From: a virus
Length of the DNA stretch: 27,832 nt
IMG/VR virus record: IMGVR_UViG_3300031746_000129
Location: 1-27,832 of that record
Direction: 5' to 3' (one strand)
The translations under genes were made by a program, and so were the position numbers. Every line of letters begins with the position of its first letter. Position 1 is the first letter of the stretch. Below, piece by piece: positions 6,446-27,832 of the stretch. Under the pieces are notes generated by a model. That model searched no databases and was not told where the DNA came from. It saw nothing but the letters and a program-made list of their open reading frames with translations.

Positions 6446-7230
6446 ATTCTCGTCTCAACAAGGCTAAGCTTTCCTTTGACAACTTCTCCGTAGTTGTCGG
6501 ACATAACATCACGCTCGAACTGGGCTTGCAGAACTTTCACCGGGAGGCCATTCGAGGTATAGACCTTCGGATTCGTTGTGTGGATTATCTCAGTGTTGTT
6601 AATGAGTGTGTTTATCGGAGTTGTCACTGTAGTTGTTGGGCCAAGATAATCTTTTAGGAAGTAAGTGTTCGGAACCATGAGCAAGTCCCATAAGATTTTG
6701 AAGGTGAGACCAACTACGACGTTTCCATTCACCGTCTCCTGTGCGAGAGGATTGTAAAGCTTGAGAGCGAAGTCGATGTCAATCTTCGGATTATTCAAGC
6801 CAGTGTATTGAACTCTCTCTTTTCTGTCGTTGAATGTTGTATTCGGAGCTAGTATTTGATAGTCTCCGGCTGCAGGAGTTGTTCCTGAATTCAGAGTCAA
6901 AACAGTTGCCGTATTGCTTGCGATTGAAGTATGTGTGGTTCCAACGGAGTCTTTCAATTTGTAGTATGCCCATTGATTAGTAATCCAATTCTTAGAACTA
7001 TCTGTGAGGGAATTAAATGCCGTTGCAGTTGAAGTTCCATCTTCAGCGACCGAACTCGCTTCGATAACCTTGGGGTATGCAGTCCGTTGGTCTACGACAT
7101 TCCCAAATCCGAATGAGATGTTTGTGGCCTGCAGGTTGATGAAGTTTCCACTTGCGACCTTGTAGTTTGAGCCTCCAACATCAATTCCATAAACGTCTCG
7201 AAGCGTTATCACATATACGTCTGTTGTCAT
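6442..7230 (-). CDS. distal tail protein carrying an inserted beta module
   Basis: The gene lies between the tape measure and the hub-like gene, the position of distal tail proteins. The start is well supported by GGTGAT three bases before ATG 7230. Residues about 64-128 form a self-contained module (SLTDSSKNWITNQW ... SNTATVLTL ... TPAAGDYQIL) that also occurs in the head-tail connector of this virus. The flanking parts (residues 1-60 and 130-262) look like one domain interrupted by the module. Function is inferred from position. Confidence 0.6.
   Translation of the reverse strand: MTTDVYVITLRDVYGIDVGGSNYKVASGNFINLQATNISFGFGNVVDQRTAYPKVIEASSVAEDGTSTATAFNSLTDSSKNWITNQWAYYKLKDSVGTTHTSIASNTATVLTLNSGTTPAAGDYQILAPNTTFNDRKERVQYTGLNNPKIDIDFALKLYNPLAQETVNGNVVVGLTFKILWDLLMVPNTYFLKDYLGPTTTVTTPINTLINNTEIIHTTNPKVYTSNGLPVKVLQAQFERDVMSDNYGEVVKGKLSLVETRI
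6847..7041 (-). repeat. shared beta module, tail-protein copy
   Basis: This segment encodes residues about 64-128 of the distal tail protein. It shares with the connector copy at 11447-11632 the pattern LTDxxKxW-xxNQW-...-SNTATxLTL-...-TPAAGxYxIL at the same spacing. The similarity is at protein level; the DNA is diverged. Confidence 0.75.
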
Positions 7231-14393: not shown

Positions 14394-14425
14394 TGATACC
14401 ACTCCATGCTAACTCATATTTAAAA

Positions 14426-14698
14426 CTATCGGTTCCCGAAGAAGAGATTGCCCAAGAAAAGGATTATGGTTATGAGCCAACTTATGAGGCCTGCAACCCC
14501 GGCCCACGCAAATCCTTTGAGGCTTCTAATCTCGGCTTCTACATTTTCTACCCTAACTTTGAACTCGGAGAAATTGTCCAGTTTGTTTTCTATTCTATCC
14601 AGACGTTCCATTATCTGTGCGTGTTCCTTGTCGTTTTGGGTCTGAAGGACATCTATCTTTAAGCACAATTCTCTCGGTGTTGATTTTCCATTTGGCAT
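14426..14698 (-). CDS. coiled-coil protein with C-terminal membrane anchor (XhlA-like layout)
   Basis: The 90-residue product has a coiled coil over about residues 12-60 (MERLDRIENKLDNFSEFKVRVENVEAEIRSL) and one transmembrane segment at about 62-86, ending FFGNR. This is the layout of haemolysin XhlA-type proteins that assist holins in phages. Its place between the radical SAM gene and the protease gene, far from the other exit-type genes, is unusual, so the comparison is by layout only. Confidence 0.6.
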   Translation of the reverse strand: MPNGKSTPRELCLKIDVLQTQNDKEHAQIMERLDRIENKLDNFSEFKVRVENVEAEIRSLKGFAWAGVAGLISWLITIILFLGNLFFGNR

Positions 14699-18024: not shown

Positions 18025-19196
18025 TATTTCGTCTCCACAACTGTTGCTCCTAAATTGCTATTGGTTGAACGCCACGCATAATAGTCTTCAGTCCATCCGT
18101 TGATATTTGTAACCGATACAGTTTCTGGGCTTTCAAATCCTCCTTCAAATCCACCTACCCAGAAAGTCGGGATGCCTAATCTTTTCGGGAATGAGAAGAG
18201 CATATATTCTCCTGCTCCCGTAGTTACTGAACTCCAAACTTGTGAGTTGTCATTTGTGATTGAAGAATTTGCTAGACCTTCAATATCAGACTCAAGGAAA
18301 GTGCTAGTCTTTGTAGTCTTCCCATAATATAGATTATCTATGCTCTGTGCTGAAGTAGAAAGCTGAAGGGATGAATTTCCTAAAGCAGATGAGTTAGAAG
18401 CATAGACTTTGTAGTTCTCTGGGTATCCTGCGCTGTTTGTTATATAGACTGTCTCTGGAGCTTTCATAGAACAGGCTATGCTGTTGAATAGAAATCCAGT
18501 CCCTCCATCACTTTCATAATCTGCTCCTGAAGGAATAGTTGTGTAGCTTGAAGGATAGGCAATTACTAGGTATTGCCCTGAAGTTGCATTGATAGACCTG
18601 CTAGTAGTGTAAGAGTTGGAAATCGAGCTTCCAGATAATCCTTCTACATCAGCTTCTGAAAATCCACTATTCTTAGTTGCTACTCCCCAATAGATGTAGT
18701 TCCTGAAATAGATAGCTGATTCGGCGGATGTTCCGCTTTCTGCTCCCTTGCTTGCGTGTAGAGTAAATTGAATGTATTTGTCCTTAGCAGAAGGATAGGC
18801 GGTATTCTCTGCCGAAGTCCCAGAAGTGTAGGGGGTTGAAAGAGTCAAGTTGCCTCCCCAAGTGACACCGCCATCTGAGCCGATTGAGATGTAAGCAGAA
18901 CTTGCAGGGCCATTTGTGTAGGAGGAAGTGAAAGCGATGTTTCCAGTTGTCTTCCAAGTTCCGGAGCCGATTAACTGCGTCGTTCCTTGTCCGTCATCGA
19001 ATGAAGCGATTGAAAAAGCGAAGGTCGCATTGTAGACTGCAGGAACCCAGTTTGTTCCGTTCCACTTCAGGACATCATTTGAGACTGGAGCAGTGGAAGT
19101 CGTGTCAACGTCTGTAAGCGCATCTATCGAGCCCGGAGTAGAACCGGATGCATAGTAATCGAATTTCCCAGTGAAAGGGTTGAAAATGTATGGCAT
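18024..19196 (-). CDS. fibre / surface protein with two internal repeat domains
   Basis: The start MPYIFNPFTGKFDYY is typical of phage fibre proteins (NPFTGKxD). After a linker with WNGTNWVPA, a beta-rich body carries two related domains, about residues 165-280 and 283-385. Both run from a YYxG/YWG strand through a FxEaDxEGLxxSSI segment to a PETVxxTNxxGxxExYxxxxSxxSxLG segment. Low charge and many Ser, Thr and Asn residues fit a stable extracellular fibre. Host attachment is likely but inferred. Confidence 0.68.
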   Translation of the reverse strand: MPYIFNPFTGKFDYYASGSTPGSIDALTDVDTTSTAPVSNDVLKWNGTNWVPAVYNATFAFSIASFDDGQGTTQLIGSGTWKTTGNIAFTSSYTNGPASSAYISIGSDGGVTWGGNLTLSTPYTSGTSAENTAYPSAKDKYIQFTLHASKGAESGTSAESAIYFRNYIYWGVATKNSGFSEADVEGLSGSSISNSYTTSRSINATSGQYLVIAYPSSYTTIPSGADYESDGGTGFLFNSIACSMKAPETVYITNSAGYPENYKVYASNSSALGNSSLQLSTSAQSIDNLYYGKTTKTSTFLESDIEGLANSSITNDNSQVWSSVTTGAGEYMLFSFPKRLGIPTFWVGGFEGGFESPETVSVTNINGWTEDYYAWRSTNSNLGATVVETK

Positions 19197-21647: not shown

Positions 21648-21685
21648 TGATATCACGTCTATCTAACTCATATTTAAAGCTATCG

Positions 21686-24365: not shown

Positions 24366-24368
24366 AAT

Positions 24369-24530
24369 TTATCTCCGAGAACGGCAATATTCCCATTTGT
24401 CCCACTTTTCGTCTAAGACATCGTCGACCATGCACGAGATCACGCTCGACATCGTTGTTTTTTGGGTGATGCACTTTATCTGGAACGCTTGCTTTTTCTC
24501 GTCGGATATGTCGACAACAACTCTTCCCAT
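24369..24530 (-). CDS. ribbon-helix-helix (CopG/Arc-type) regulator, 53 aa
   Basis: The product MGRVVVDISDEKKQAFQIKC... has one N-terminal strand followed by two helices (DEKKQAFQIKCITQ and TMSSVISCMVDDVLDEKWDKW), the plan of RHH transcription factors that bind DNA as dimers through the strand. It is the first gene of the leftward late block. There is no Shine-Dalgarno, and the TATA box upstream is placed so that transcription should begin at the A of the ATG, so the mRNA is probably leaderless. Autoregulation or control of the neighbouring divergent promoters is a natural inference. Confidence 0.72.
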   Translation of the reverse strand: MGRVVVDISDEKKQAFQIKCITQKTTMSSVISCMVDDVLDEKWDKWEYCRSRR

Positions 24531-24550
24531 GTGAAAAGTGATAAACTTAC

Positions 24551-24561
24551 ATATATATAAA
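24551..24561 (-). promoter_or_regulatory. TATA box of the leftward late block
   Basis: On the minus strand TTTATATATAT is centred about 26 bases upstream of the ATG at 24530, the spacing between archaeal TATA box and transcript start. This predicts a leaderless transcript and marks the main promoter for about 24 kb of leftward genes. Confidence 0.7.
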
Positions 24562-24680
24562 TGTTACTGATGTTTTGAATTTGGTGTAGAAACCGGCGAT
24601 AGGCCTGTCTACAAAAAACAATCCGTCGAGGGAAACCCCCCGTATCCTTCGCATATTGTCAACCAAATCTGGACAATACC
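24562..24680. promoter_or_regulatory. divergent control region, left part
   Basis: No gene is supported here. The stretch lies between the leftward TATA box and the first rightward TATA box. It holds an inverted repeat TGTAGA/TCTACA (24585-24590 and 24608-24613), a GC-rich GAGGGAAACCCCCC segment (24629-24642) that can form a small hairpin, and the first copy of a 16-bp direct repeat. Regulator binding sites are likely but none is identified. Confidence 0.45.
24644..24659 (+). repeat. 16-bp perfect direct repeat, copy 1
   Basis: ATCCTTCGCATATTGT, identical to 25061-25076. This copy ends 21 bases before the TATA box at 24681. Confidence 0.85.
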
Positions 24681-24690
24681 TTTATAAATA
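24681..24690 (+). promoter_or_regulatory. TATA box of the 37-residue microprotein gene
   Basis: TTTATAAATA on the plus strand predicts a transcript start near 24711. The leader to the ATG at 24810 is about 100 bases, rich in A and G and almost free of T up to 24770, with repeated GAACAAG-like words, and ends in a strong AAGGAGG. Confidence 0.65.
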
Positions 24691-24809
24691 TAACATACGT
24701 AATGGTAGTAGAAGAAAAATAAGAAACAAGAAGAACAAGAACAAGAAAGAACAAGACAACAAAAAACGAATATGATAATGATAACATAAGAAAAAGGAGG
24801 ATTGAGAAA

Positions 24810-24923
24810 ATGAACATAGATATAAGCGAACAGTCTTTAAATTGGCTGTGCCTATTAGAGGCCCAGACCGGTTTAAATTGGTCGGTTGAACGTCGAGGGG
24901 ATAGGGTTTATTTGACAAGATAA
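24810..24923 (+). CDS. microprotein, 37 aa
   Basis: The ATG follows AAGGAGGATTGAG, the strongest Shine-Dalgarno in the control region. The product reads MNIDISEQSLNWLCLLEA, then QTGLNWSVERRGDRVYLTR: an amphipathic helix followed by a likely strand pair. It has its own promoter and sits between two copies of a 16-bp repeat. No family recognised; size and place suggest an early regulatory peptide or inhibitor, which is inference. Confidence 0.62.
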   Translation: MNIDISEQSLNWLCLLEAQTGLNWSVERRGDRVYLTR

Positions 24924-24924
24924 A

Positions 24925-24956
24925 CCCTGATTATTAAGCGACGTGAAGAATAAGGG
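24925..24956. repeat. 32-bp near-palindrome, copy 1
   Basis: Begins CCCTGATTATTAAG, centre CGACGT, ends GAATAAGGG directly after the microprotein stop. It is an imperfect palindrome with CCCT.ATT / AAT.AGGG ends, and matches copy 2 best in inverted orientation (about 26 of 32 positions). Confidence 0.75.
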
Positions 24957-25026
24957 AGATTCCAATAAGACTATACTAGGGTATATCAAGTAGTGCTTTA
25001 TAGTAGTATATGTAGTATTGGGATGG

Positions 25027-25058
25027 GCCTTATTTTTAACGTCGTTTGATAATAAGGG
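25027..25058. repeat. 32-bp near-palindrome, copy 2
   Basis: Begins GCCTTATTTTTAA, centre CGTCG, ends ATAATAAGGG. It lies two bases before copy 2 of the 16-bp repeat and upstream of the zinc-ribbon operon promoter. Candidate operator or replication-related site. Confidence 0.75.
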
Positions 25059-25060
25059 TA

Positions 25061-25076
25061 ATCCTTCGCATATTGT
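25061..25076 (+). repeat. 16-bp perfect direct repeat, copy 2
   Basis: ATCCTTCGCATATTGT, 417 bases from copy 1 and one base before the TATA box at 25078. No third perfect copy was seen in the window. Confidence 0.85.
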
Positions 25077-25077
25077 G

Positions 25078-25087
25078 TTTATTTAAA
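25078..25087 (+). promoter_or_regulatory. TATA box of the zinc-ribbon operon
   Basis: TTTATTTAAA predicts a start near 25108-25110, giving a leader of about 22 bases that contains GAGGTG five bases before the ATG at 25132. Confidence 0.6.
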
Positions 25088-25131
25088 GTGAAATTAGACA
25101 AAAGCGAACAAAAAAGGTATGAGGTGAAAAG

Positions 25132-25389
25132 ATGAAAGACTACATAGCTGTCATCGTTTTAAAGGCCGAATGCCCCGACGATGCAACAGAATTAATCCAC
25201 GACTATCTCGGGACAGAAACCGAAGTTAGGGTCCTCGATGTTATGAAGGACAGTAGGTTGAGAGTTTGCCCAGAATGCGGAGGGCAAATTGAAATTTCAG
25301 GCGGGAACATCAACCACGTTTCGAGGGTTTTTGTTGTCCTTCGATGCGAATGTTGTGGAACCTGCTACCTGAAATCGAGAGGTGATTGA
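25132..25389 (+). CDS. zinc-ribbon protein 1 of the early operon
   Basis: The 85-residue product has an N-terminal alpha/beta part (MKDYIAVIVLKAECPDDATELIHDYLG) that looks like a small ferredoxin-like unit, then Cys46/Cys49 (CPECGG) and a C-terminal RCECCGTCY cluster (Cys72, 74, 75, 78) forming a probable zinc ribbon. It is the first gene of the rightward operon, with GAGGTG at good spacing. Its last bases contain the Shine-Dalgarno of the next gene. Nucleic-acid or protein binding is likely; the target is unknown. Confidence 0.75.
   Translation: MKDYIAVIVLKAECPDDATELIHDYLGTETEVRVLDVMKDSRLRVCPECGGQIEISGGNINHVSRVFVVLRCECCGTCYLKSRGD
25381..25386 (+). promoter_or_regulatory. Shine-Dalgarno GGTGAT serving an ACG start
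   Basis: GGTGAT lies exactly three bases before ACG 25390, the same spacing as before ATG at 604, 3287 and 7230. It overlaps the stop of the preceding gene. Confidence 0.6.
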
Positions 25390-25533
25390 ACGAAACAAGA
25401 CATTTGCCCGAAATGCAAAAGCACACGAGTCAAGATATCCAGAAACATCCAGAAGGATGAGCAGACCGGACAGAAAGAAGTAGTCAACTGGGAGCTTTCC
25501 TGTCCAGACTGCGGTTATGAAACGGAGGATTGA
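25390..25533 (+). CDS. zinc-ribbon protein 2, 47 aa, apparent ACG start
   Basis: Directly after the TGA of zinc-ribbon protein 1 and in the same frame, the sequence reads ACG AAA CAA GAC ATT TGC CCG AAA TGC, then 47 codons to TGA. The product has Cys6/Cys9 (CPKC) and Cys38/Cys41 (CPDC), a clean four-cysteine ribbon. There is no ATG, GTG or TTG before the first cysteine pair in this frame, but ACG stands where the genome's standard GGTGAT-N3 spacing expects the start. Readthrough of the TGA to make a 133-residue fusion is the alternative. The coding sense is well supported by the cysteine pattern; the start is the unusual part. Confidence 0.65.
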   Translation, partial: TKQDICPKCKSTRVKISRNIQKDEQTGQKEVVNWELSCPDCGYETED

Positions 25534-26575: not shown

Positions 26576-26857
26576 GTGGATTTTAAGGACTTAGTGTCCA
26601 AACAAAATCTTGAATATTTTGGCATTCCCCCGTTTGTGCTTATGTTCGAATGCGACGAGTTCGCATCTTGGTGGGGTTCTCTTTCTGTTGAGCATCGCAT
26701 TCAGCTTGTTGAGATTTACTACTTTAAAGGGAGCGAGGCCCCTCTCCATGCAATCTTTCGTGCTTGGAGGAAAATCCACAGGAAGGAAGGGCAGCGAGTC
26801 AAGAAAGAGATTCTAAACGCCATCTACAAAGAGCATCCTGAGCTAAAGGATGTCTAA
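26576..26857 (+). CDS. helical protein, 93 aa, unknown function
   Basis: The product reads MDFKDLVSKQNLEYFGIPPFVLMFECDEFASWWGSLSVEHRIQLVEIYYF, followed by a basic helical part (AIFRAWRKIHRKEGQRVKKEIL). It is mostly alpha-helical with no known motif. The start GTG 26576 has a purine-rich GGGGGAG only 18 bases upstream, so the start is uncertain. It has its own promoter and converges, with a 15-base overlap, on the epimerase gene. Confidence 0.6.
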   Translation: MDFKDLVSKQNLEYFGIPPFVLMFECDEFASWWGSLSVEHRIQLVEIYYFKGSEAPLHAIFRAWRKIHRKEGQRVKKEILNAIYKEHPELKDV

Positions 26858-27745
26858 AATGCCTTTCTTTAAGCTAATCTTTGCCCTGAAGCCCAGGTCT
26901 TTCTCTGTTTTTTTGGTGTCTGCGAGAGTGTGCTGCACATAGTTCTTGCTTGTGTTCTCGATGTAGTTCGGAGCCATGTCCGGAAGGATGTCCCCTATCT
27001 CACGGACCACATCATTCAGCGAATAGCTTCTGCCAGTCCCGACATTGTAGACCTCTCCAGGCTTTCCTTTTTCGGAGGCTAGGATGTTTGCCTCGACCAC
27101 ATCCGAGACGTGGATGAAATCCCTTGTTTGGGAGCCATCGCCATAAATCAGGGGGGCCTCCTTCTTTTGCATGGCCCAGACGAATTGGGATATCAGGTTA
27201 GCACATTTTCCTTTCCACTTCTCTTTTCTGCCGTAGACGGAGAAGTATCTAAGGCCGATTGACTCAACCCCAAAGTTCTCCCAGTAGAACTTGCTCATCC
27301 TCTCCATTCCGATCCGGGCTTCAGTGTAAAGGCTCGTTATCTTCGGGACCTGCTTTTCCTTATGAGGAGTTGGAAGGCCGTTGTAGATTGAGGAGGAGCT
27401 CGCATAGACCACCCGAGCATTTGCTGCCATCGCATACTCGAGCACATGGGTGAACTCCTCGATGGCCCTTCCTACTCTAAAGGGGCAAGACTCATAGTGA
27501 GGAGCGCTCGACCAAACCCCTTCGTGGAAGATGAAGTCAGTTGGAACGTTGTTGCTCTTGCAGACCTTCTCGATATCCTTCGATTGGGTATAAGGAGAAA
27601 CAAAAGCATATTTTTCAGCAGTCAGATTCTTCATCGAACCAGTATGCATGTTGTCGATTATCCCGACGTTATGCCCTTCTAAAACAAGTCTGTCCGCAAG
27701 AGTAGAACCGATGAAGCCGGCCCCTCCAGTTATGACAACATTCGT
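26843..27745 (-). CDS. NAD-dependent nucleotide-sugar epimerase/dehydratase (extended SDR), apparent ACG start
   Basis: About 300 residues if begun at ACG 27745: NVVITGGAGFIGSTLADRLVLEGHNVGIIDNM gives the TGGAGFIGS NAD-binding motif. VVYASSSSIYN, YTEARIGMERM (YxxxR in place of the usual YxxxK), RYFSVYGRKEKWKG, GDGSQTRDFIHVSDVVEA and YNVGTGRSYSLNDVV follow, matching UDP-sugar 4-epimerases and related dehydratases. No ATG, GTG or TTG lies in this frame between the upstream TAA (27776-27778) and the NAD motif; ACG stands three bases after GGTGAG. An ATG at 27649 would lose the NAD motif and is unlikely. The substrate is unknown. Confidence 0.85.
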   Translation of the reverse strand, partial: TNVVITGGAGFIGSTLADRLVLEGHNVGIIDNMHTGSMKNLTAEKYAFVSPYTQSKDIEKVCKSNNVPTDFIFHEGVWSSAPHYESCPFRVGRAIEEFTHVLEYAMAANARVVYASSSSIYNGLPTPHKEKQVPKITSLYTEARIGMERMSKFYWENFGVESIGLRYFSVYGRKEKWKGKCANLISQFVWAMQKKEAPLIYGDGSQTRDFIHVSDVVEANILASEKGKPGEVYNVGTGRSYSLNDVVREIGDILPDMAPNYIENTSKNYVQHTLADTKKTEKDLGFRAKISLKKGILDIL

Positions 27746-27832
27746 ATTCTCACCTTCTTCATCTCTTCGTCGACGTTATAATGAACAAAAAGCTTTCTCC
27801 AGGTCTTTCTCCACTGCGGGTCCTCACGCCTT
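27730..27832 (-). CDS. C-terminal end of an unidentified protein (cut by window edge)
   Basis: An open frame enters from the right edge and codes for 33 residues, rich in Arg, Lys and Trp (EDPQWRKTWRKLFVHYNVDEEMKK), before TAA at 27730-27732. It overlaps the epimerase start by 16 bases, the usual operon pattern here. Too little is present to name a family; a sugar-pathway gene is possible from context. Confidence 0.5.
   Translation of the reverse strand, partial: RREDPQWRKTWRKLFVHYNVDEEMKKVRIRMLS
27749..27754 (-). promoter_or_regulatory. Shine-Dalgarno GGTGAG serving an ACG start
   Basis: On the minus strand GGTGAG-AAT-ACG has the same core and spacing as GGTGAG-AAC-ATG at 4787. Confidence 0.6.

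Follow-up and report, generated by a model that had tools for sequence, protein, structure and literature searches.

A viral sugar epimerase gene that may start at ACG behind a Shine-Dalgarno sequence

In a 27,832-nt stretch of virus DNA (hereafter the window), the gene of an NAD-dependent sugar epimerase, and probably also a zinc-ribbon gene starting at position 25390, appear to be translated from ACG by weak initiation driven by a Shine-Dalgarno (SD) sequence, a reading of the sequence that we hold with moderate confidence. That the epimerase ACG occupies the position of the start site is proposed with high confidence. The main rivals to ACG initiation are a recent loss of the start codon and an error in the consensus sequence.

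The epimerase frame and its start position

The epimerase lies at the edge of the contig, where the following features are found:

26843..27745, minus strand: sugar epimerase of the SDR family, NAD-dependent, with 300 intact codons, assigned by PF01370 and phrog_540
27743..27745, minus strand: ACG, proposed epimerase start codon, placed by the Met-1 column of homologues and by homologue votes in the virus-group survey
27749..27754, minus strand: GGTGAG Shine-Dalgarno sequence, whose GGTGA ends exactly 4 nt before the ACG
27730..27831, minus strand: 3′ end of the upstream gene, which is open in a different phase and incomplete at the contig end

The frame encodes a Rossmann domain with the GGxGFxG motif, and its match to PF01370 covers the whole domain profile (E 5e-39, profile positions 1-240 of 240, residues 13-246), which places it in that family; the match to phrog_540 of PHROGs reaches E 1e-51. 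When scored with the window's own codon usage, the frame gives 0.11, versus −0.29 to −0.86 in the other frames. On the minus strand it opens past TAA 27778-27776 and ends at the stop at 26843, and the codons that lead from this TAA to the proposed start are CGT CGA CGA AGA GAT GAA GAA GGT GAG AAT ACG, with AAT 27748-27746 separating GGTGAG from ACG 27745-27743. The codons that follow (AAT GTT GTC ATA ACT GGA GGG GCC GGC TTC) encode NVVITGGAGF, so that the N-terminus read from ACG is (M)NVVITGGAGFIGSTLADR and begins with MNVVITGG. The first ATG, GTG or TTG of the open frame is found only at residue 43 (27649), beyond the NAD-binding motif. The original prediction that the motif is encoded in a frame with no standard start before it was thus borne out, as none is present between the upstream stop and Met 43.

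The placement of the start was established by comparison with homologues. Aligned to solved epimerases of similar length, the open frame has its residue 13 opposite chain residue 3, which was seen for many homologues, and the ACG, being residue 11, therefore falls in the Met-1 column. All eight epimerase-like genes of other viral loci, among them distant ones and members of a neighbouring subfamily, have ATG at the equivalent position, and several ATG-start epimerase-like genes in such loci are preceded by GAGGTGA or GGAGG. Starts were also surveyed in 584 genes with homologues, from the window and 36 other viral loci; twelve of them were flagged since the expected start had no standard codon nearby, and for the window epimerase it was expected exactly at the ACG. 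With stricter homologue voting, applied to 262 genes, the start was ATG in 227 and a standard codon within five codons in 30, while the window ACG is one of the five others. Both coordinates and alignment hence agree with the claim that ACG 27745 stands three bases after GGTGAG at the N-terminus typical of the family, and homology together with the exact SD spacing gives good support to its assignment as the start position; for the epimerase there is a homologous start and no standard codon available to serve it.

Two other candidates were not accepted as non-standard starts: GGAGGTGGAATACG at 16935 of L094 has a start of the ATGA-overlap type five codons on, and GGTGAAGTAACG of L084 is located inside an apparently longer coding sequence. 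GTA at the expected start in locus L090 (17383 frame) may be such a start, or this gene may be fused to the preceding one. Separately, in L102 (4681-5752) a one-base shift is present just past the ATG of a conserved gene; this gene is either broken or misassembled.

The region in front of the ACG offers another way to begin the epimerase. Translation could start at ATG 27762 or in the upstream gene and enter the epimerase frame by frameshifting, or a one-base indel could hide a fusion of the two. The frames do overlap, and ATG 27762 begins MKKVR, a plausible epimerase-like N-terminus. However, this ATG stands within the overlapping upstream gene as one of its internal codons, in a frame different from that of the epimerase, and the upstream frame continues past the epimerase start and ends with ...KLFVHYNVDEEMKKVRIRMLS* (stop 27732-27730), giving a 16-nt overlap; since ATG 27762 belongs to that gene, a one-base error becomes a poor explanation. 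No match in Pfam was found for the upstream fragment. Moreover, such a start would put about six residues ahead of the usual Met, no slippery heptamer is apparent by eye, and the SD sequence with ACG at the exact spacing would have to be a coincidence. This alternative is considered very unlikely.

The second ACG frame and Shine-Dalgarno spacing

A second frame that seems to open with ACG is located on the other strand:

25132..25389, plus strand: gene preceding the second ACG frame, with two CxxC pairs, an ATG start with GGTGA-N4, and TGA at its end
25381..25385, plus strand: GGTGA Shine-Dalgarno sequence of the second ACG frame
25390..25533, plus strand: second ACG-start frame, a predicted 47-aa zinc-ribbon-like protein (CxxC...CxxC), proposed from SD leader, position and cysteine pairs

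Here ACG 25390 follows GGTGA by 4 nt, as had been claimed for another case in the window, and TGA 25387-25389 of the cysteine-rich gene directly abuts it in the same frame, the junction reading ...GGTGATTGA and then ACGAAACAAG..., with 47 codons after the TGA. No homologue of the product was found in phages, its matches to zinc-ribbon families of Pfam are weak and below cut-off, and the codon-usage score does not discriminate for this frame. Because homologues are lacking, the gene reading stands on the position, the SD sequence and the cysteine pairs. For this frame, readthrough of the preceding TGA, which would simply extend the upstream protein, could be considered, given that the frame is the same, TGA is directly before ACG and cysteine pairs are present in both halves. 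Yet TGA terminates 22 of the 39 frames in the window, and the leader aggtgattga-ACG is the same as aggtgattga-ATG of the gene starting at 7230, which makes readthrough highly improbable. Recoding of TAG or TGA in the window was likewise rejected.

The spacing of the two sites was evaluated within the window, where 51 copies of GGTGA were counted over both strands (0.0009 per position). The most frequent SD arrangement is GGTGA-N4, which seven ATG genes have in common with the two ACG sites. When codons at this spacing were tallied for open frames of at least 45 codons with no standard start upstream, ATG was found seven times, ACG and GTA twice each, and AAC, TCC, GGA, ATA and CCC once each; of the two GTA cases, one adjoins the ATG of the gene at 19196 and one runs antisense to the capsid gene. 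When the open frame must reach 47 codons and have no standard start upstream, GGTGA-N4-ACG is present at two sites, versus none for each of 19 other orderings of the GGTGA letters, which upholds the argument that two ACG codons at the exact spacing are unlikely by chance. Both ACG codons thus have an SD sequence at the normal distance, as would be needed for SD-dependent non-AUG initiation.

The two sites together bear on the remaining rivals. It may be that an ATG recently changed to ACG by transition, that little or nothing is now made from the gene, and that no further lesion has yet accumulated. Both genes look accessory and related epimerases use ATG, as such a loss would predict, but two losses in one genome would be needed, the epimerase still has 300 codons without stop or frameshift, and the SD sequence is retained at the exact spacing in both genes; a loss of the start is therefore rather unlikely. 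Alternatively, the true base could be T and the C could come from a consensus or assembly error, or from a minority variant in the metagenome. Only 88 nt separate the epimerase ACG 27745 from the contig end, the part of an assembly that is least trustworthy, and error-like indels are found in related contigs, e.g., at the gene start at 4681 in L102. This explanation, however, requires two independent substitutions of the middle base in two start codons, one of which (25390) sits 2.4 kb inside the contig, and we regard it as unlikely. Finally, C-to-U editing of the mRNA could turn ACG into AUG; no such editing is known to us in mRNA of archaea or their viruses, and it is the least probable of all explanations. 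It would account for the fact that both proposed starts are ACG, the very codon that C-to-U makes AUG, and the process is established in plant chloroplasts (PMC9845219).

Start codons in related viruses and in wider searches

The window represents a 27.8-kb virus fragment, the whole of its record, in which PHROGs matches identify terminase, portal, protease and HK97-like capsid, i.e., the gene set of tailed viruses (Caudoviricetes). Single-protein searches with the epimerase, terminase and capsid found no close relative of this virus. Searching with a portal alignment retrieved 34 IMG/VR contigs, and more were added with a capsid alignment; the nearest relatives are 45-47% identical in capsid and portal. 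Leaderless-type TATA promoters with TTTAAATA precede the protease and portal genes, and near-identical promoter-like sequences TTTAAATATGAGTTAG are found before the same genes at 14396-14430 and 21650-21685 (minus strand), placed as for leaderless transcripts. All of the ten best plasmid-borne relatives of the epimerase are haloarchaeal (36-38%). These promoters and the haloarchaeal relatives point to an archaeal host, and the tailed virus, judged in this way, probably infects archaea. Distant relatives of the terminase and portal are present in Thermoproteota genomes; since the Thermoproteota loci chosen by terminase contained no GGTGA-N4-ATG, the host phylum is not fixed to Thermoproteota. 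In the phylum of Thermococcus no portal relative was found.

Two further observations concern this virus group. The non-coding part of the window at 24366-25131 contains a repeated CCTTCGCATATTGT element, inverted AATAAGG-containing elements and several TATA boxes, and may be a control or replication region. The portal gene of L083 (9983-11545) has an in-frame TAG about 237 nt in, aligned to Lys/Arg of homologues, possibly pyrrolysine or a suppressed stop in that host.

In related viruses, near-cognate starts are found in core structural genes. In four of 19 viruses the protease gene (MPKKLDEIHDA...) carries ATT where the others have ATG, and ATT is also found at the start of two terminases, after AGGAGG:

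L085 11961-12543, plus strand: ATT protease open frame
L093 11493-12081, plus strand: ATT protease open frame
L106 5074-5677, plus strand: ATT protease open frame
L114 11729-12515, reverse strand: ATT protease open frame, with an in-frame ATG also present ten codons upstream
L108 7471-8923, plus strand: ATT terminase open frame
L109 5591-7040, plus strand: ATT terminase open frame

The protease tree contains four separate changes between ATG and ATT, which are forced by well-supported branches. An SD-like sequence precedes all four ATT protease genes (weak in L093) versus about four of the 15 ATG ones, as judged from our own reading of the leaders with a Fisher p of about 0.02 calculated by hand, and most ATG versions look leaderless. 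Relatives of the two terminases have ATG after GAGGAGG or AGGAG; both terminases also have an in-frame TTG six codons upstream, to which homologues do not reach. As the ATT starts follow SD-like sequences, near-cognate starts seem to be tolerated in the group, and because protease and terminase are core structural genes, near-cognate initiation very likely works there, at least for ATT. In an analysis of start evolution in prokaryotes, at distances much shorter than those considered here, one ATG-to-AUU switch was reported among 61,358 ancestral ATG starts (PMC5622118).

The recurrent near-cognate start of the group is nevertheless ATT, with a mismatch in the third base, and not ACG. No ACG start was found in the related viruses, whose epimerases use ATG. 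About 85,000 species genomes were scanned for GGTGA followed by ACG, AAG or AGG before the epimerase motif (GGTGA-AVG), and nearly all of the 48 matches are explained by a standard start; viral contigs gave none. A single ACG case from the genomes lacked any standard start, and its draft sequence is frameshifted within that gene; ACG starts thus seem very rare in general. Neither of two Vulcanisaeta loci was used as support: in L008 a GTG is present three codons upstream, and L014 of Vulcanisaeta sp. JCM 14467 (about 7093-7136), whose epimerase-like gene has its ACG six bases behind GGTGA, is the frameshifted draft case just described. The question had been raised whether the virus or its host uses ACG regularly. 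With two cases seen, one of them without homologues, none in relatives and a single one in the scan, regular use of ACG found no support, and of the idea of relaxed initiation only the general part, sustained by the recurrent ATT, is retained.

Proposed initiation and known systems

In the proposed mechanism the anti-SD of 16S rRNA would pair with GGTGA in the leader (GGTGAGAAT-ACG) and thereby place ACG in the P site, where initiator Met-tRNA (anticodon CAU) would pair with the first and third base, the C-A mismatch in the middle being tolerated; ACG would thus initiate in the host and be read as Met. Ribosomes finishing the upstream gene, which overlaps in the case of the epimerase and abuts in the case of the zinc-ribbon gene, could re-initiate nearby. 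In E. coli, initiation at ACG was measurable but very poor; relative to ATG, ACG was in the 0.1-1.5% group and ATT in the 7-22% group (PMC6925171). In the virus, the yield from ACG is probably low, which may suit accessory genes. In Sulfolobus, aIF1 destabilises initiation complexes on non-AUG mRNA, according to work cited in PMC6237735. Given a strong SD sequence, the ribosomes of these uncultured hosts may be able to use weak start codons. A wider proposal, in which the virus group and its hosts have relaxed start selection, strong SD sequences partly replace the codon, ATT and ACG are ordinary starts, perhaps to keep expression low, and the genes concerned are missed or cut short by standard gene finders, is put forward tentatively and is rather doubtful.

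Natural ACG starts in archaea or their viruses are undocumented as far as searched, and none was found for archaea, archaeal viruses or phages in literature that consisted mostly of papers available without subscription. If ACG initiation holds true, gene prediction restricted to ATG, GTG and TTG shortens genes of this kind, which in the epimerase removes the NAD-binding end, and the role of aIF1 and initiator tRNA in fidelity could be tested in uncultured archaea with defined natural leaders. The repeated switches between ATG and ATT in related viruses form a natural series for testing start fidelity.

Among known systems, non-AUG starts in prokaryotes accompany stronger SD sequences (PMC5622118), and this combination of weak start and strong SD is seen here as well, although that study treated GUG and UUG with few CUG and AUU and does not mention ACG. 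In chloroplasts, ACG is present in DNA at the start position, as here, and is edited to AUG (PMC9845219). Near-cognate starts are also found in bacterial infC and pcnB, which have AUU start codons, and ATT in the related viruses belongs to this type; their mismatch is in the third base, whereas that of ACG is in the middle base, and ACG is outside the starts of NCBI table 11. VP2 of AAV is initiated at ACG. Work cited in PMC9845219 describes the same for the P/C mRNA of Sendai virus. In both, a viral gene begins at ACG, as proposed for the epimerase, but they depend on eukaryotic scanning, whereas here the SD sequence would set the site.
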